A DNA stretch of 50,035 nucleotides, taken from an uncultured delta proteobacterium (lineage in GTDB: Bacteria; Myxococcota_A; UBA9160; JAFDET01). The notes beneath the pieces were generated by a model, which ran no database searches, was not told the DNA's origin, and saw only the letters and a list, made by a program, of their open reading frames with translations. This document shows positions 3,833 through 11,999 of this stretch, one piece after another (the stretch's first letter is position 1; every line of letters starts with the position of its first letter). The stretch is from positions 1-50,035 of the forward strand of contig CAMYLJ010000011.1 in the NCBI GenBank assembly GCA_947259215.1, in the 5' to 3' direction. Made by a program: the position numbers and the translations under genes.

Positions 3833-6800
3833 TCAGGAATGGCCCGCGGGATGCCGCGGAAACCGACGGCGCGCACGTGCAGCCAGAACCGGCAGCAGCA
3901 AGACGAGCTCGAAGCCGAGGCCGCAGCCCGCGATGTCTTCCACGGTCCAGAGGAGGACGACGGAATCCACGGTGGGGCCATCGGACACGCCGACGACGAC
4001 CTGATGGGTCCCAACGCTCGCCGACCCAGCGGCGCCGCTGATGACGCCACTATTCGGATCGAGTGTGAGCCCGGATGGAAGCCCCGCGGCCCCGAAGTAG
4101 AGCGCATCACCATCGGGATCCGTCGCCGTCAGTGGCAGCGAGACCGAGCCGCCCACTTGGCTCAGCTGGGTGCCCGGATCCACGAGCGTCGGAGACTGGT
4201 TCGTGAGCGCCGGCGGCACGGCCTGGTAGAGGCGGCCCGGGGACATGACCTGCTTGGAGAAGCCGGGTCCCTCCCAGCTGACGGTCAGGGACTGGCCGCC
4301 GAACCGCTCGAAGTACGTCACGACGATGTCGTGAAAGCCGGGGGCGAGGGCAACCGTGCCGGAACCTTCCTGGTCCCCGTGGACTCCGTCGTTGTCCACC
4401 ACCAGCGCGCCATCGATGAAGAGCTGGCTGCCCTCGTTGGAGGTGGTGTAGAAGGTGTGGTCCCCCTGCTCGTCGATCTGGATGACTCCGCTGAAGCGAA
4501 ACGCGAACTCGCTGTCCCGGTTGCGAAGTGAGATGTCGAAACCGGAGGCGGACCCGACCGTCACGGGTGTCAGGCTGTCGAAGTCGGGCAGTGCGGTCGG
4601 GGCCGCGATCTCGTAGTACTCGTAGAGTACCCCGCTTGCGGGAAAGCTCGGGTCGATCCGGGTAATCCACTCGGCCATGAGATCCACTGCCGTCTGGTCC
4701 ACGAGGTTCTTCGCCAGCGGTGGCATCGCCGCAGCGCCGAGCGCCGCCATGCGGTGATAGAGGACCGACGTCAGCGGATTGCCCGGCGTGATCACCGCGG
4801 CGCCGGGGAGCTGGAGGTTGTTGGCGACGGCCCCGTATACGAGTCCCTGGTTCAGCAACGGCGTGGTGAGTCGCGCGTCGAAGACGGCGAAGGTCGGCGA
4901 CTCGGGCCGGTGGCAGTAGGAGCAATTGGCGTCCAGGTAGGACCGCGCCCGATCAGCGAGCGACGCCGCCACGTCGCCCAGCTCTCGCGAGCGCGGGAGG
5001 CCTGGAATCGCCGCCTCGACGATGGCGGGCGAGAACATCCCCAGGTTGTTCCAGGTCCGGATCTGGTCGTCGATGCGTCCGGTGCTCGGATACATCACGT
5101 CGCGGTGGATCTGGTGGGTCCGAGGCCCCAGCGCGCCCGCTACGCCGGCGTTGTGGCAGAGCGAGCACTGGGCGCGCGAGGGAAACTGCCAGGTCTGGGT
5201 CCGCGAGCCTCCCCCCGCGGTCTGGATCGTGTAGTCGCCGGTCTCGGCCTCGGTGAGAAGCCGGGCATCGCTCTGGTCGGGCAGCCAGCGGTAGGTGAGA
5301 CCATACCAGCTCCCGTCGTCCCCGTGGGCCAGGAAGCGTGTCTCGAGCCGCGTCGTGACGCTCGGATCGGTCTCGTCCACGGGCAGCTCGAAGTGCTTCA
5401 TCAGGACCGTGCCGACCGGAAAGGACCAGTCGCTGCTCTCCGACCACGTGATCTGCTCGCCAGGCGTGTCGGGAGTCCCGTCGTTGGGCAGGGCGATCCA
5501 GCGCTGCTTGGCGGCTGCGTCGGACCAGAAGGGCTGGTTCAGCCAGTAGGGGATGAACCCGTTCGCCGGGTCGAGGGTGGCGAGATCGGCGAAGGCGCCG
5601 AGCTGCGACAGCAGGGAGGGCGGATCCGCGACGGGGGACCCGATTCGCGCGAGCGTATAGAGCGAACCCGTGGAAGCGACACTCGCCAGGAAAATCTCGC
5701 CGGCGTTGTCCTGGCCCCAGGTTCCCAGAGCTCCCGGGCCGAAGTCCGTCATGAGCTCCTTCGAGGCCGTCATCGTGGTCTCGTCCAGCGTGATGGCCCA
5801 TAGGTTGCGGGTGACGTAGTCGCCGGCCAGGTAGCGTCCGTCGAGCTCCGGGAACTGGGTTCCGCGATATACGTAGCCCCCGATGAGCGCTTTGGCCTCG
5901 TCGCGGGTGAAGTCGACGACCGGGTCGGTCAGGCTGCCGAGGATCGTGGGCGGCGGCGAGTCCAAGCCCGCGATCATGCCCTCGCGGAAAGGCCAGCCAT
6001 AATTTCGGCCGATTTCGACGACGTCGATCTCCTCGCGGGACAGGGCGCCCACGTCGCCCAGCCACAGCCGTCCCGTCAGGGGATCCTTGGACATACGGTG
6101 CGGATTGCGGAGACCGATGGCGAAGTACTCCTCGAACGCCCCGCCGGCGGAATCGAGCCACGGATTGTCGTCGGGGATGCAATAGAGCTGGCCGGAGACC
6201 TCATCGCCGCTCAGGGTGCGGGGCGCGGGGTGGCTGCCGGCCGGGCAGCTCCACGTCTGGCCCGTTTTGCTGACGTCGACGGCCAGGCGCAGGACGCCGC
6301 CCCCGAGGTTGCTGACGATGTCTTGAGACCGGTGCCTGCGGAACTGCTCGCCGATCGTCAGGTAGAGGTACCCGTCGTCGCCGAACACCAGCGCCCCGCC
6401 GAGATGGGTGAAGCTTTCGAGGCGGATGTTGAGGAGAATCTCTTCGGACTGGGGCTGGGCGTGCAGGGAATCCGGCGCGTTGAAGCGCGAGAGGCGCAAA
6501 TAACCTCCCGAGAATATGCCGCCATTGAGGGGGTAGTTCGGGACGCACGCCCCGAGGTCGACGGAGTCGCCCGCCGCGTTCAGCGGGCAGTGCGATGAGT
6601 AGAAGACGTATACGTGTTTGCTGAAGGGGGAGCCCGAGATGCCGAACTGTGGATGGAAGGCCATGCCCAGGAAGCCTCCCTGAGTGACGGGCACGACCCG
6701 ATCCGAGAGGTCGAGGAAGGGCTCGGCGAGGGTCACGTTCGGGTCGTTCAGGAAGGAGACGATCACGCCAGCCTGCGAGCCCACGTAGAGCCGGTTGACC

Positions 6801-7477
6801 GACGGGTTGGCCACGATCACGAGCGTGTTGGGGAGCGCGAGGTTGGAGAAGGCGGGCACGACGTCCCAGTTCGACGTCCCGGGAGCATTCGGCGTGCGCG
6901 GAGGAAGCGCGCCGTCGAGGAACGGACCCACGGGCAGCAGATCCGTCCCCGGGGCTACCGCGCGCACGAGGTAGTGGCCCGCCGTGGCGTCCTGCAAGTC
7001 CAGGTTGGACGTAAGGCCGCTCGTCGTGGCTGCGGCCGCTCCCAGGCCACCCGCCCGATAGAACGGCCTGGTGGTGGTTCCGGCGCCGTTCCAGTCGGCG
7101 AATCCCCGCGCGAGCACGTTCCCTGTCCCGCAGAACTGCGTGCACCCGAGGAAATTCAGCAGAGTGTTGGCGGCGGTGTCGTTCGAGGGGTCGGCGGCGG
7201 CGTCCGTCGTCAGGAAGCCCGCGTTCCTGAACAGCGTCTCCACCTGCGCTTCGGTTGCGTGCACGTAGCCGTCGACCGCGACGAAGCTGGAGGCTTCTAC
7301 CTGGTTCCAGGAGTCCCCGATCGTTTCCGTGAGATCGAGCCACTCGAGGCCGGTGTCGGTGTCGATCATGCTGGTGCCGCTGTCGAACAGGGTTGCCGAC
7401 GCGGAAGAGGCCAACAGGAGCGCCAGGCTCCCCACCAGCATGACCGGCTTCAGCCGCGCGCGGGTTGCACGTGTCAC
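3833..7477 (-). CDS. Secreted multidomain diheme sugar-dehydrogenase-like protein with PA14 domain and CGLG C-terminal tail
   Basis: The start is GTG 7477, with GGAAGGAGAG just upstream; the product is 1214 aa. In order it has a signal peptide (1-28), an N-terminal domain opening with DTDTGLEWLDL as in PEP-CTERM-associated proteins (about 29-175), a six-bladed glucose/sorbosone-dehydrogenase-like beta-propeller (about 195-612; THLGGALVFGDDGYLYLTIG, IGLRNPHRMSKD, NYGWPFREG), and a c-type cytochrome region with CSLCH (about 770) and CSYCH (about 852) resembling diheme proteins fused to such propellers. These are followed by a PA14 carbohydrate-binding domain (about 972-1077), a putative-Ig He_PIG repeat (about 1096-1172) and the tail CGLGFELVLLLPVLAARARRR (from about 1185). 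The plausible role is extracellular PQQ-dependent sugar or polyol oxidation with electrons passed to the hemes. The tail suggests envelope sorting, but the enzyme activity is inferred. Confidence 0.8.
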   Translation of the reverse strand: MTRATRARLKPVMLVGSLALLLASSASATLFDSGTSMIDTDTGLEWLDLTETIGDSWNQVEASSFVAVDGYVHATEAQVETLFRNAGFLTTDAAADPSNDTAANTLLNFLGCTQFCGTGNVLARGFADWNGAGTTTRPFYRAGGLGAAAATTSGLTSNLDLQDATAGHYLVRAVAPGTDLLPVGPFLDGALPPRTPNAPGTSNWDVVPAFSNLALPNTLVIVANPSVNRLYVGSQAGVIVSFLNDPNVTLAEPFLDLSDRVVPVTQGGFLGMAFHPQFGISGSPFSKHVYVFYSSHCPLNAAGDSVDLGACVPNYPLNGGIFSGGYLRLSRFNAPDSLHAQPQSEEILLNIRLESFTHLGGALVFGDDGYLYLTIGEQFRRHRSQDIVSNLGGGVLRLAVDVSKTGQTWSCPAGSHPAPRTLSGDEVSGQLYCIPDDNPWLDSAGGAFEEYFAIGLRNPHRMSKDPLTGRLWLGDVGALSREEIDVVEIGRNYGWPFREGMIAGLDSPPPTILGSLTDPVVDFTRDEAKALIGGYVYRGTQFPELDGRYLAGDYVTRNLWAITLDETTMTASKELMTDFGPGALGTWGQDNAGEIFLASVASTGSLYTLARIGSPVADPPSLLSQLGAFADLATLDPANGFIPYWLNQPFWSDAAAKQRWIALPNDGTPDTPGEQITWSESSDWSFPVGTVLMKHFELPVDETDPSVTTRLETRFLAHGDDGSWYGLTYRWLPDQSDARLLTEAETGDYTIQTAGGGSRTQTWQFPSRAQCSLCHNAGVAGALGPRTHQIHRDVMYPSTGRIDDQIRTWNNLGMFSPAIVEAAIPGLPRSRELGDVAASLADRARSYLDANCSYCHRPESPTFAVFDARLTTPLLNQGLVYGAVANNLQLPGAAVITPGNPLTSVLYHRMAALGAAAMPPLAKNLVDQTAVDLMAEWITRIDPSFPASGVLYEYYEIAAPTALPDFDSLTPVTVGSASGFDISLRNRDSEFAFRFSGVIQIDEQGDHTFYTTSNEGSQLFIDGALVVDNDGVHGDQEGSGTVALAPGFHDIVVTYFERFGGQSLTVSWEGPGFSKQVMSPGRLYQAVPPALTNQSPTLVDPGTQLSQVGGSVSLPLTATDPDGDALYFGAAGLPSGLTLDPNSGVISGAAGSASVGTHQVVVGVSDGPTVDSVVLLWTVEDIAGCGLGFELVLLLPVLAARARRRFPRHPAGHS

Positions 7478-7509
7478 CTCAGCTCTCCTTCCCGCTACGC
7501 GCATTCCGA

Positions 7510-7781
7510 GGACGCGCCATAGCTCCAGGTTTCCAGGTGGGATTCCGGGGCAACAGGCGTGCCTGCGGAACTGCTCGTCGATCGTCAGGCAGGGGTACGT
7601 GTCGTCGTGCCACGTTGCCGTTCGACGTCCCGGGGGGATTCGGGCTGCGCGGCGGAAGCGCGCCGTCGAGCAACGGACCCGCGGGCTCGGGCGCGTCGAG
7701 CGCGTAGGGCTGAGCGGCAGCCGGCGCAGCGGTAAGGAGCGCCAGCGTCAGGCCCAAGTTGAGGGGAAGCTTGGACTGCAC
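7510..7781 (-). pseudogene. Decayed tandem copy of the downstream sugar-dehydrogenase-like gene
   Basis: The frame opens at GTG 7781 with a signal peptide and continues AGPLLDGALPPRSPNPPGTSN, nearly identical to VGPFLDGALPPRTPNAPGTSN in the full-length gene just downstream. It then jumps, with a frame change, to sequence encoding YPCLTIDEQFRRH, matching YLYLTIGEQFRRH of the intact protein. At DNA level 7559-7605 aligns with about 6334-6375 and 7610-7690 with about 6860-6925. About 500 bp of the parent is therefore deleted between the two homologous blocks, and everything after the second block is gone. It is a same-strand paralog remnant directly upstream of its intact sister and not a functional gene. 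Confidence 0.75.
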
Positions 7782-8134
7782 ACGCGCACTCTACTACCAC
7801 GTGGAGTGATGTTGAAGTGGCGACGAAGCGTCCTGCGACTCCCTGCAACGCCCTGCGACATCGCGCCCGGAACCTCACGACCCAAGAACGTACTGAAAAT
7901 GAAAAGTTTTTGGGACCGATGCAGCACGTTGAGGGATGCCGAAGAGGCGCTCGACGACCTGGTCGATCGAGTCCAGTTGCTCGAATCTGCCCCTCGGGAC
8001 CAGTCGCAGGGCGGGGCGTTCCGCCTTGAAGCCGGAAGCGTACACTCGCAGGATGCTGGAGAGCCCCGCCGACTCGCGATAGAAGGGAGTCGGGGGGCAG
8101 CGTCCTCCTGGCTGTGCATGGATGGGAAGCCAGT
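7782..8134. other. Stretch without a recognisable gene
   Basis: I see no convincing coding sequence on either strand. The frames here are interrupted or read as shadows, and the region contains AAAATGAAAAGTTTTTGG, an AT-rich island near 7897-7914. It separates the decayed gene copy on the minus strand from the amidohydrolase on the plus strand, so the promoter of the latter probably lies here. Confidence 0.4.
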
Positions 8135-8164
8135 TTGCAGGCGTTGCACGTGCGACACCTGCAA
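8135..8164. promoter_or_regulatory. 30-bp near-perfect palindrome before the amidohydrolase gene
   Basis: Outer arms TTGCAGG and CCTGCAA enclose a central GCACGTGC. Thirteen of the fifteen symmetric base pairs match. The site ends 11 bp before the ATG at 8176. Its size and symmetry fit an operator for a dimeric or tetrameric regulator of the TetR, MarR or LysR kind; an RNA hairpin in the leader is an alternative. No adjacent regulator gene is present. Confidence 0.5.
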
Positions 8165-8175
8165 TCCAGAATGTC

Positions 8176-9366
8176 ATGAGACACAGCGGTGCCGGGGCTC
8201 GAGGCGTGATCTTCGACTGCGACAACCACTACTACGAAGCTCCCGACGCGTTCACGCGGCACGTGCCCGCAGCGATGCAGCCGCGCTGCGTCCAATGGAC
8301 CGAGATCGACGGCCGCAAGCGCCACGTGATCGGCGGGACAGTCGACTACTCCGTCGGGAACCCGCTCTTCGACCCGATCGCGAAGCCGGGCGTGCTGTAC
8401 GACTACTTCCAGGGAAACCCCAGCGGGAAGCCTGCCTGGGAGCTGATGCGCGGCGACCTCGAGCCGCAGCCCGCCGCGTATCGGGATCCCGCGGCGCGGC
8501 TCGCGAAGATGGACGAGCAGGGCCTCGAGGCGATCTGGCTGTTTCCCACGCTCGGCGTGCTCTACGAGGAGCGGATCAAGCACGACATCGATGCGCTCTG
8601 CACGATGTTCACGGGCTTCAACCGCTGGCTCGACGAGGACTGGGGGCTCTCCAGCGAGCGGATCTTCGCGGCGCCCTACCTGTCGCTGGCCGACGTCGAG
8701 TGGGCGGCGGGCGAGCTCGAATGGGCGCTCTCCCGCGACGCGCGGATCGTCGTGACGCGCCCCGCGGCCGCGTGGACGGCCGAGGGACCGCGCGCCCCCG
8801 GGCACGAGTGTTTCGATCCCTTCTGGGCGCGCGCGAACGAAGCCGGCGTCACCGTGGTCATCCACACCGGCAACTCGGGATACGCGAGCAACGGCTACGA
8901 TGCCGAGGGCTTTGGCCTCGCCTCGGTCGGCATGGCACACGCCCCGTCGGTCACCGGCCTGGCACTCGAACGCTCTGCGAACGACTTCCTCCTCGACCTC
9001 TCCTACAAGAAGGTCTTCGAGCGCTTTCCCAAGCTGCGGATCGCCTCGATCGAGAACGGCTCGGCGTTCCTGCCGAACCTCCTGAAGCAGCTCGAGCACG
9101 CGAAACGCCGCAACCCGTGGCACTTCGACGAGGACCCGGTCGCGCTCTTCCGCGAGCACGTCTGGATCAATCCCTTCTGGGAGGACGACATCGAAGAGCT
9201 GGTCGCGCTGATGGGGCCCGAGCACGTGATCTTCGGATCCGACTGGCCCCACATGGAGGGGCTGCCCGAGCCCCGCGGCATTCTCGAGGAGATCGGTGGG
9301 CTCGACGAGACGGCGCAGGACCTCTTCCTGCGCGGCAACGCGCGGCGCCTGAACGAGCGCCGCTAG
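8176..9366 (+). CDS. Amidohydrolase family 2 protein (metal-dependent hydrolase/decarboxylase)
   Basis: The 396 aa product is a TIM-barrel amidohydrolase of the family 2 group (Pfam Amidohydro_2), whose members act as decarboxylases or hydrolases of aromatic and cyclic carboxylates. The N-terminal metal motif is of the D-x-D-N-H-x-x-E type (FDCDNHYYEAPDAF), followed by the conserved VVIHTGNSGY with a metal-binding His and FGSDWPHMEG with the catalytic Asp near the C-terminus. Length is normal for the family. I chose ATG 8176 because the open frame upstream covers the 30-bp palindrome and has no plausible ribosome site; GTG 8206 is an alternative. This subfamily is frequent in bacteria degrading steroids and other hydrophobic compounds, which matches the genes at 25-38 kb. 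The substrate is unknown. Confidence 0.85.
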   Translation: MRHSGAGARGVIFDCDNHYYEAPDAFTRHVPAAMQPRCVQWTEIDGRKRHVIGGTVDYSVGNPLFDPIAKPGVLYDYFQGNPSGKPAWELMRGDLEPQPAAYRDPAARLAKMDEQGLEAIWLFPTLGVLYEERIKHDIDALCTMFTGFNRWLDEDWGLSSERIFAAPYLSLADVEWAAGELEWALSRDARIVVTRPAAAWTAEGPRAPGHECFDPFWARANEAGVTVVIHTGNSGYASNGYDAEGFGLASVGMAHAPSVTGLALERSANDFLLDLSYKKVFERFPKLRIASIENGSAFLPNLLKQLEHAKRRNPWHFDEDPVALFREHVWINPFWEDDIEELVALMGPEHVIFGSDWPHMEGLPEPRGILEEIGGLDETAQDLFLRGNARRLNERR

Positions 9367-9700
9367 CAAGCTGGAGAACGGTTCGTGAGGCGGAGCTCTG
9401 CTGCGTCTCCTGACCGTCCGGACTCCAGGCGTTGCAGCGGCCCGCGTCGCCTCTACCAGTCCAGCGGAGTAGAGGTCACAGAGAGCCCGCTGCTGAAGTT
9501 GGTGAACCCGAAGTTTCCAAGGGTCGTCGTGGCGGCACTATCACCGTTGCTCACCCGGAACGTGGAGTTGCGCGCCTGGGGGCTGCTTTCGCAGGGCCTG
9601 AGGGGCATCCCCGACAACACTCAGACCCGCCTGCGCCTCGACCTGAACGCGAAGTTCTAGGCGCGCGTGCCATTCGGCCATTCCCCGAAGGGAGGCGCTC
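9367..9700. other. Stretch without a supported gene
   Basis: A short plus-strand frame (9385-9660, 91 codons) exists and ends in RLRLDLNAKF, which could be the last strand of a beta-barrel protein. The rest is not recognisable, there is no signal peptide and no ribosome site. I treat it as a possible gene-end remnant next to the tRNA fragment, not as a gene. Confidence 0.3.
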
Positions 9701-9746
9701 CTTCGTAATCAGCAGGTCAGCGGTTCGAATCCGCTCGTCGGCTCCA
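9701..9746 (+). pseudogene. 3' fragment of tRNA-Thr (CGT), likely attachment-site scar
   Basis: The sequence runs from the anticodon loop (TTCGTAA) through the 3' anticodon strand TCAGC, variable loop, a perfect T-arm (stem AGCGG/CCGCT at 9719-9723 and 9731-9735, loop TTCGAAT), the acceptor strand CGTCGGC, discriminator T and CCA. The matching 5' acceptor strand GCCGACG, D-arm and 5' anticodon strand are absent upstream, so this is not a working tRNA. Integrases commonly recombine in tRNA genes and leave exactly such a 3' segment. A second, more degenerate copy lies at 21283-21323. Confidence 0.8.
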
Positions 9747-9948
9747 GCTCTTCGCGCACTTGCGCGTCCGCGGTCTCGCAACGCGCGGCCCCGGAGACAC
9801 GGCGGAAGCAGTCGACGCCGGGACCGGGGGCTCAAGCGGACCCGCCGTGCCGTCGATCCGTCCCGCCGCGGTGAACGCTCGCGACTGCTGGGAGGAGACG
9901 GGCTCCTTGACCCTGAGCGCCGACCGCCGCAGGCTCCTCTTCGACGAC

Positions 9949-10746
9949 ATGCGCGTCGCCACGGCGCGGGTGCTGGCCGCCCTGCTGCTGGCGCTGGCGG
10001 CGGCCACCGCCGGGGCGGACTCCGGCGGCCCCTACGCGTTCGTCCCGGATCTCCGGGAAGGCGAGTACGCGCCGACCGTGGCGATCGACTCGGACTTCGA
10101 GGCGAGCCTGGCCTTCTTCGCGACCCACCTGCCCCAGCCCGTGGTGGAGGCGGGACGGTCGGAGCCTTCGCGGCTCGAATGGCGCCCCGTTCCCGACGAC
10201 GTGGAGGCCAGCACCGGACGTGTGGCCGACCTGGGGAGCCACCGGCTCTACGCCGTGCGCTTCGTCCGGAGGGAGACGCTCGAGCGGGGCTGGGATCCCG
10301 CCTTTGCGATCCTGATCGTGGCGGACCGGGCCCGGGAGCCGGGCCGCTTCCGCCCGGTCTTCTTCACGACCGGCGGCGCCACCCGGGACCACAGTGTGAG
10401 CGGGCGGCTCGAGTCCGGCGGGCTCCGCTTCGCCATCGTCCGCCGCCACTACGACGGTCAGGGCAACCACGTGGACTCCATCGCCCTGGCCGTCGATTCG
10501 GAGACGCGCCGGATCGTGCGCTACGACCTCGCCGCCGGCGGGACCTACTGGCAGGGCCTCCGGGCCGACGGCTGGAAGCCCTGGTCCCGCGGCCACGGCT
10601 TCGACGAGACCGGTCTGGCCTGGCGCCACCGGATCTACCGCGACGGCCCGAACGGCGCCCCCGAGCACGCGACCATCCGGGTGCCGGTGGAGTTCCGCGA
10701 CGGGCGCTTCCGGACGACGGGCGTCTTCTTCGACCCGTCCCGCTGA
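9949..10746 (+). CDS. Secreted protein of unknown function
   Basis: From ATG 9949 the frame encodes 265 aa with a clear signal peptide (MRVATARVLAALLLALAAA, cleavage near TAGA-DSGG). Longer in-frame starts exist but put the hydrophobic segment about 64 residues inside, so 9949 is preferred despite a weak ribosome site. The mature part is soluble, rich in Arg, Asp and Trp, with no Cys and no motif I recognise. Segments such as RLYAVRFVRRETLERGWDPA and VFFTTGGATRDHSVSG suggest a beta-rich fold. The gene is just inside the tRNA-bounded segment and converges on the hydrolase gene that ends at 10785. Confidence 0.65.
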   Translation: MRVATARVLAALLLALAAATAGADSGGPYAFVPDLREGEYAPTVAIDSDFEASLAFFATHLPQPVVEAGRSEPSRLEWRPVPDDVEASTGRVADLGSHRLYAVRFVRRETLERGWDPAFAILIVADRAREPGRFRPVFFTTGGATRDHSVSGRLESGGLRFAIVRRHYDGQGNHVDSIALAVDSETRRIVRYDLAAGGTYWQGLRADGWKPWSRGHGFDETGLAWRHRIYRDGPNGAPEHATIRVPVEFRDGRFRTTGVFFDPSR

Positions 10747-10784
10747 CGCAGCGACACCCGTCGAAGGTCGTGCGGGTGGTCCGG

Positions 10785-11999
10785 CTAGTGCCGCCGTCTC
10801 CGCCGCAGCCACAGGAACCCCGGAAGTATCACCACCAGCTCGAAGCCGAGGCCGCAGGCCGGAGCCTCGGTCACGAAGAAGAAATCGACGGGCTCCAGGA
10901 AGGCGAAGTCGGGCGTCAGATAGCGGTCGTAGCGGGAGTCGGACGCCAGGTTGCTCTGCAGGAAGGCGATCGCGTAGAGGTTCGTCACCCGGTGCGCCTC
11001 GTCGACCGGAATCAGCTCGGGTCCGCAGCCCTCGTCGGCGCTGCCCAGGATGAACTCCAGCAGGTTCGGCGGCAGGCCCGCGCCGATCAGCACGGCGAAG
11101 AAGTCGCAGATGTTCGTGAACGAGTTGTGGCCCGCATCGAGCAGATCGACGCGGTAGCGCGGCACCGACACGGGCAGCCCGAAGGCGCGGACGTTGCTGG
11201 GTTCGATGGGGACGGTGATGTCCGCCGTCCCTCCCAACACGAGCTCCGGCAGCTCGACGCTCTCCAGCTGACGGTCGCTGAGGCCCCCTACCGCCGGAGA
11301 GATCGGAACCAGAACGCGAACCCGAGGGTCAGGCGGCACATCCTGGAAGCCGGTGGCCATCGCCATCGTGGTGAAGCCGCCGAACGAGTGTCCCATCACG
11401 CCCGTGCGATCCCCATCGAGCGTCTCGAAGAAGGTATCCGCGGGATCGGCGTTCTTCTCGAGCATCCACGTGATCACCAGGGAGATGTCGAGGGGCCGAT
11501 CCCGCGTCTCGAAGGGTGGTCCGGGGGAGAGGAGGTCGAGGGCCGTATTGCCGGCGTGGTCCGGAGCGACGACCACGAAGCCATGGCTGGCGAGCGTTTC
11601 GGTGAGGAAGAACGACTGGAAGCGAATGCCGTTGTTGCCATGGGAGAACACCACGAGGGGAAACGGTCCGTCCAAAGAGACGGGCGGCCCGTCCAGCGCA
11701 ACGGCCGACGGAAGTCCGGCGAAGACGAGATCGTAGACCGAGGGCGAAGCCCCGACCGCGGCTTCGGCGTCGACGGGATACCAGGCGTCCACGGTGAGGG
11801 TCCGATCCTCGCGGCTCCCGTCGACTACGGTGAAGGTGGTGCGGCCCACGGCAAAGGGGCCGAGCTCGTCGGGCGGGTCGATGGGACCGTGGGCGGGCGG
11901 CTCCTCCATGGGAGGCTCCGCCCCGGCCGTCGTCGCCCACGTCGGGAACAGGATGGCGAGCGTCAGGAATGCAGCGATGCCGGTTCGGAGAGCGAGCAT
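10785..11999 (-). CDS. Secreted alpha/beta hydrolase (PAF-acetylhydrolase/lipase-like) with CGLG C-terminal tail
   Basis: ATG 11999 follows AAGGAAGG and opens a 404-residue protein with a signal peptide. The hydrolase core has an oxyanion strand FPLVVFSHGNNG, the nucleophile elbow GVMGHSFGGFT (G-x-S-x-G), an acid-containing strand ELVLGGTADITVP and a catalytic-His region DAGHNSFTNI. This layout resembles the platelet-activating-factor acetylhydrolase/dienelactone hydrolase branch. The protein ends ACGLGFELVVILPGFLWLRR plus further Arg/His, the same tail as the propeller protein at 3833-7477: Cys-Gly-Leu-Gly, a hydrophobic stretch and a basic end. I infer export followed by lipid- or surface-linked processing at the Cys-Gly tail. 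The substrate, probably an ester, is unknown. Confidence 0.8.
   Translation of the reverse strand: MLALRTGIAAFLTLAILFPTWATTAGAEPPMEEPPAHGPIDPPDELGPFAVGRTTFTVVDGSREDRTLTVDAWYPVDAEAAVGASPSVYDLVFAGLPSAVALDGPPVSLDGPFPLVVFSHGNNGIRFQSFFLTETLASHGFVVVAPDHAGNTALDLLSPGPPFETRDRPLDISLVITWMLEKNADPADTFFETLDGDRTGVMGHSFGGFTTMAMATGFQDVPPDPRVRVLVPISPAVGGLSDRQLESVELPELVLGGTADITVPIEPSNVRAFGLPVSVPRYRVDLLDAGHNSFTNICDFFAVLIGAGLPPNLLEFILGSADEGCGPELIPVDEAHRVTNLYAIAFLQSNLASDSRYDRYLTPDFAFLEPVDFFFVTEAPACGLGFELVVILPGFLWLRRRRRH

Follow-up and report, generated by a model that had tools for sequence, protein, structure and literature searches.

A window of 50,035 nucleotides (the whole stretch of DNA analysed) from an uncultured member of the Myxococcota encodes two proteins whose C-termini follow the same short pattern, which raises the question of whether this tail is a protein-sorting signal and, if so, to which system it belongs. 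Both genes are minus-strand open reading frames whose predicted coordinates are right, and the features considered are as follows.

3833-7477, minus strand: gene 1, exported GSDH / diheme-cytochrome-like / PA14 / He_PIG protein with CGLG tail
7394-7477, minus strand: plausible Sec signal peptide of gene 1 (hydropathy rule; peptide end by eye)
3836-3925, minus strand: CGLG tail of gene 1
3906-3925, minus strand: CGLGFEL signature of gene 1, Cys codon 3923-3925
about 3878-3913, minus strand: hydrophobic stretch of the gene 1 tail
about 3863-3877, minus strand: Arg cluster of the gene 1 tail
10785-11999, minus strand: gene 2, exported alpha/beta hydrolase (PETase/PAF-AH-like) with CGLG tail
11919-11999, minus strand: plausible Sec signal peptide of gene 2 (hydropathy rule; peptide end by eye)
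10788-10856, minus strand: CGLG tail of gene 2
10837-10856, minus strand: CGLGFEL signature of gene 2, Cys codon 10854-10856
about 10806-10844, minus strand: hydrophobic stretch of the gene 2 tail
about 10791-10805, minus strand: Arg cluster of the gene 2 tail

Gene 1 starts with GTG at 7477 (an alternative ATG at 7504 is possible), ends at 3833 and combines a glucose/sorbosone dehydrogenase (GSDH) domain with a diheme-cytochrome-like region, PA14 and He_PIG; gene 2 starts with ATG at 11999 and ends at 10785. Their C-termini read CGLGFELVLLLPVLAARARRR (longer form ...IAGCGLGFELVLLLPVLAARARRRFPRHPAGHS) and CGLGFELVVILPGFLWLRRRRR (longer form ...APACGLGFELVVILPGFLWLRRRRRH), respectively, and in both the CGLGFEL signature is followed by a hydrophobic stretch with Leu-Pro, judged as a transmembrane stretch by eye and Kyte-Doolittle hydropathy only, and then by the Arg cluster. 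Reading frames and domain matches thus confirm the original prediction that two proteins with unrelated domains share one C-terminal pattern. A neighbour of gene 1, a NosD-like right-handed beta-helix protein (977-2797 of the window, minus strand), carries no tail.

The tail is not confined to the window. Over the 5.7 Mb genome, a degenerate DNA pattern for CGLGFEL has six occurrences against none for its reversed counterpart, and all six sit at the ends of open frames, which indicates more than chance. A profile built from the first seven tails matched 12 places of the genome well (E < 0.03), all of them C-terminal, and a later profile found 14 tails, of which 12 were read. The search for further copies that had been proposed for this genome therefore yields at least 12 tails, on differing domains: besides the two window proteins, the carriers are tannase, CAP, PQQ propeller, DUF3604, BNR, CARDB, sulfatase and subtilase proteins and two short frames without a Pfam match. 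For nine of the 12, the hydropathy rule indicates a plausible signal peptide for export. The other three tails lie on short open frames (L345:4066-4449, L352:4245-4562 and L353:1358-2389) in which neither a clear start nor a signal peptide was recognised, and which are perhaps assembly frameshifts or remnants.

A wider exact-pattern scan of genome contigs from 84,980 species returned 14 stretches, every one from a record whose title names Myxococcota, Myxococcales or Deltaproteobacteria (delta proteobacterium). Searching 282 genomes of the phylum with the profile gave 42 positives, 35 of them among the 52 genomes of the window's order, and the seven matches among the 230 genomes outside the order were all marginal (E 0.003-0.01). 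A deeper search of the 59 genomes of the window's class again found the tail in 35 of 52 genomes within the order and in one of seven outside it (E 0.02), leaving 17 order genomes without a tail in this search, and one genus of the order (g17) had none among the six genomes covered. Positive order genomes carry from 1 to 24 tails, 218 matches in total. Close relatives, the second place in which copies had been sought, thus share the tail across much of one order, and its recurrence on differing domains in this genome and in relatives supports the reading of its three parts as the anatomy of a sorting signal.

The 46 tails collected share the consensus C-G-[LIVMF]-G-[FAP]-E with Pro at +11. Cys, Gly+1 and Gly+3 are present in all 46, Glu+5 and Pro+11 in 44 each, and Leu or Phe at +13 in 41, and the distance from Cys to the first basic residue is 15-20 residues (mode 17). 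CGLG served as the search seed, and 42 of the tails came through a filter that required the Cys; this filter admitted Gly, Ser or Ala at +1 and Gly or Ala at +3, so the invariance of the two glycines is not wholly imposed. Immediately N-terminal of the tail, 17 of 42 tail proteins have a DGxDNDxDG-type repeat rich in Asp (CxDGxDNDxDGxxDxxxDPxC; L009, L013, L020, L043, L050, L053, L058, L059, L060, L075, L076, L080, L082, L084, L087, L089 and L092), perhaps a calcium-binding stalk. One alternative account of the tail would be a plain C-terminal membrane anchor that stays unprocessed, its likeness among proteins arising from descent by gene-end shuffling, and the failure to find a cognate enzyme (see below) fits such an account. 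However, a plain anchor would need no invariant Cys-Gly-x-Gly-x-Glu and Pro+11 across many families, and the hydrophobic stretch of the tails is short, about 11 residues (+6 to +16), and interrupted by Pro, such that we consider this account improbable.

We compared the tails with the described CTERM families. The window tails score below the cut-off of every NCBIfam CTERM model, Pfam offers nothing relevant for the 46 tails, and the CGLGFEL string was not found in the literature searched. Against the MYXO-CTERM model TIGR03382 the window tails reach at best 12.1-12.9 bits (cut-off 15.85). With E up to 1, four of the 46 tails match TIGR03382 and two match TIGR03901, and when ten tails were scored singly two passed TIGR03382 in alignments that cover the Cys, so that a few of the relatives' tails may already be named MYXO-CTERM by NCBI. 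The original prediction that the motif differs from known CTERMs consequently stands for the window tails, with the limit that a small minority of relatives' tails pass the loose model TIGR03382, so that the kind of tail is known even though its motif is not. No place above the TIGR03382 cut-off in the window's own genome is a CGxG tail; L015, L017 and L019 were read as PEP-CTERM-type and L016 as non-C-terminal.

The resemblance to the MYXO-CTERM/MrtX system (TIGR03901, TIGR03382, NF040914) extends to a short motif with an invariant Cys, a hydrophobic stretch, an Arg cluster, N-terminal signal peptides, many targets per genome and the same phylum. It is thus possible, though in our view somewhat unlikely, that the tail is a MYXO-CTERM signal which has drifted in this lineage and is still cut by a divergent CPBP enzyme, as the common phylum, the three-part build, the invariant Cys and the two of ten tails passing TIGR03382 with the Cys aligned would suggest. 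Against such drift, the window tails remain under the cut-off and the motifs differ, MYXO-CTERM having a GCGC-like motif and a polar linker whereas the tails of the window's order have CGxGxE...P and no such linker. Cys and the Arg pair are 20-26 residues apart in 30 high-scoring MYXO-CTERM tails of the phylum, compared with the 15-20 residues from Cys to the first basic residue given above. An hhalign comparison of the CGxGxE profile with a MYXO-CTERM profile (22 of the 30 tails included in its alignment) joined the two over the hydrophobic and Arg part only, and the window's class is without the myxosortase core.

This last point emerged from a survey of the same 282 genomes. The cut-off of the myxosortase core model NF040914 is exceeded in 209 of them. 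All of these belong to the 223 genomes that lie outside the window's class; none of the 59 within it passes, and five genomes of the order have only weak matches (E 1e-9 to 1e-11). Matches to TIGR03901 are weak in the order: by a reading of the table, two of its 52 genomes have a best E of 1e-4 or lower, and of the 223 genomes outside the class only about 19 fail to reach that value. Myxosortases had reportedly been predicted by an in silico study. The accessible part of PMC11980579 describes MYXO-CTERM as universal in Myxococcota, mrtX orthologs as present in all known genera, and MrtX as cleaving MYXO-CTERM in a Cys-dependent manner in M. xanthus, with cleavage also in E. coli. As worded in that part, the statement on mrtX in all genera does not hold for the window's uncultured class at the curated cut-off.

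Synerg-CTERM (TIGR04564), another Cys-type tail, is matched weakly by four of the 46 tails with E up to 1 (best E 0.0013). One tail scored singly reached 12.9 bits, where the cut-off is 22.5, and the window's own genome has no MrtS above cut-off. CGP-CTERM of Thermococcales, as described in the accessible part of PMC4870337, likewise starts with Cys-Gly followed by a C-terminal transmembrane segment, but it is archaeal and reads Cys-Gly-Pro, and no match to its model was listed for the 46 tails. PEP-CTERM, the exosortase substrate, has a comparable order of motif, hydrophobic stretch and basic end, while the tails studied here have an invariant Cys and the Pro-Glu-Pro motif was not found in any of the 46. 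To the extent of the literature and models searched, the CGxGxE motif, its order-wide use and a class without the myxosortase core are undescribed, whereas Cys-containing CTERM tails as a kind are already known.

PEP-CTERM-type tails (VPEP or similar, a hydrophobic stretch and Arg) do occur in the same genome (L015, L017, L019 and L023), and an exosortase system is therefore probably present beside the Cys tails. This opens the way to an exosortase or a rhombosortase, rather than a CPBP protease, as the processing enzyme, and a single tail of the 46 was listed for GlyGly-CTERM (TIGR03501) at 13.1 bits, under the cut-off of 15.5. We give such processing little credence, given the absence of Pro-Glu-Pro and an invariant Cys that typifies CPBP-linked signals; a crude motif scan of 27 fetched stretches (301,626 bases) also found no rhomboid gene, nor any Lgt gene.

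Among CPBP proteases, none was found that cleanly co-evolves with the tail. The window's own genome encodes seven, all below the myxosortase cut-off, and in 14 fetched stretches no CPBP gene lies near a tail, as judged by similarity to these seven and by motif. A tree was made of 94 of 98 CPBP sequences from 24 genomes (four rows left out). Of the CPBP groups, group B (own gene L025) was retained as no more than a partial lead. It has 16 clear members (>100 bits) among the 282 genomes, all in the window's order, the next best score outside the order being 88.7 bits, and it retains the catalytic Glu-Glu, His and His/Asn residues. Within the order, group B is found in 14 of the 35 genomes with tails and is absent from the other 21, compared with its presence in two of the 17 genomes without tails (Fisher p 0.055, not corrected for phylogeny). 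Group C (own gene L028; 16 of 18 sequences aligned) was rejected as a specific enzyme, being present in 178 of the 282 genomes, 134 of them outside the order; inside the order it occurs in 29 of the 35 genomes with tails and in 15 of the 17 without. Group A, to which own gene L026 belongs, was rejected as not specific on its occurrence in 11 of 12 tail-bearing and seven of nine tail-free order genomes, as read from the tree. Group A genes (L026:166-1317 and L167:1855-2730 among the loci) have a related, conserved downstream neighbour in 17 of 18 loci, and the two neighbours scanned against Pfam are PilZ proteins, which suggests a link of this group to c-di-GMP signalling. Group E, a CPBP subfamily of the order (L203, L231, L233, L246 and L254), keeps EExxxR, but several members lack the catalytic His of the later motifs, and these look like inactive relatives that are unlikely to be the enzyme; one member is close to a tail gene (G005, contig 540). 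The own gene resembling pepcterm_CAAX (L029; TIGR03008 80.7 bits, cut-off 81.05) was likewise set aside as more likely tied to PEP-CTERM.

Taken together, the tail is in our view likely to belong to the Cys-containing CTERM type of C-terminal sorting signals for proteins, and to serve in this role across a single uncultured order of the Myxococcota. What the sequences themselves show is the modular sharing of the tail, its strict motif, its position at protein ends, its restriction to the order and a class without a canonical myxosortase; the reading is weakened by the lack of an enzyme that follows the tail, by the 17 of 52 order genomes that are tail-free and by a hydrophobic stretch that contains a Glu and is short for a membrane span. 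By analogy with known systems, tail proteins would be exported by Sec via their N-terminal signal peptides until the hydrophobic stretch stops in the inner membrane, leaving the Arg cluster in the cytoplasm and thereby placing Cys-Gly-x-Gly-x-Glu at the periplasmic face. There the Cys would probably be lipidated, and a protease acting within the membrane, which as in the MYXO-CTERM case would most likely be of the CPBP/Rce1 type, may cleave after the Cys and remove the hydrophobic part and Arg cluster, leaving the protein anchored and ready for putative delivery to the surface. A CPBP-type enzyme is proposed because MrtX, according to the accessible part of PMC11980579, cuts MYXO-CTERM in a Cys-dependent manner. 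A more speculative scheme, which we regard as rather unlikely, is that the window's class has swapped myxosortase and MYXO-CTERM for a separate Cys-based system, in which Lgt would lipidate the Cys directly at the membrane edge and the tail would later be removed by an enzyme other than myxosortase. Direct lipidation by Lgt is conceivable since the Cys with its membrane-side invariant Gly mirrors the bacterial lipobox, where Gly is followed by Cys, a parallel that is our own.

If the tail is indeed a sorting signal, a whole class without the myxosortase core, in which one order carries a stricter and different Cys tail on many surface-type enzymes, would offer a natural test of whether it is the Cys that the pathway reads, and not the remainder of the signature. 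It also delimits the genomes where a second Cys-tail protease or a lipidating enzyme could be sought. For annotation, the 218 tail matches in the 35 positive genomes of the order mean that many proteins could now be named as probably surface-anchored.
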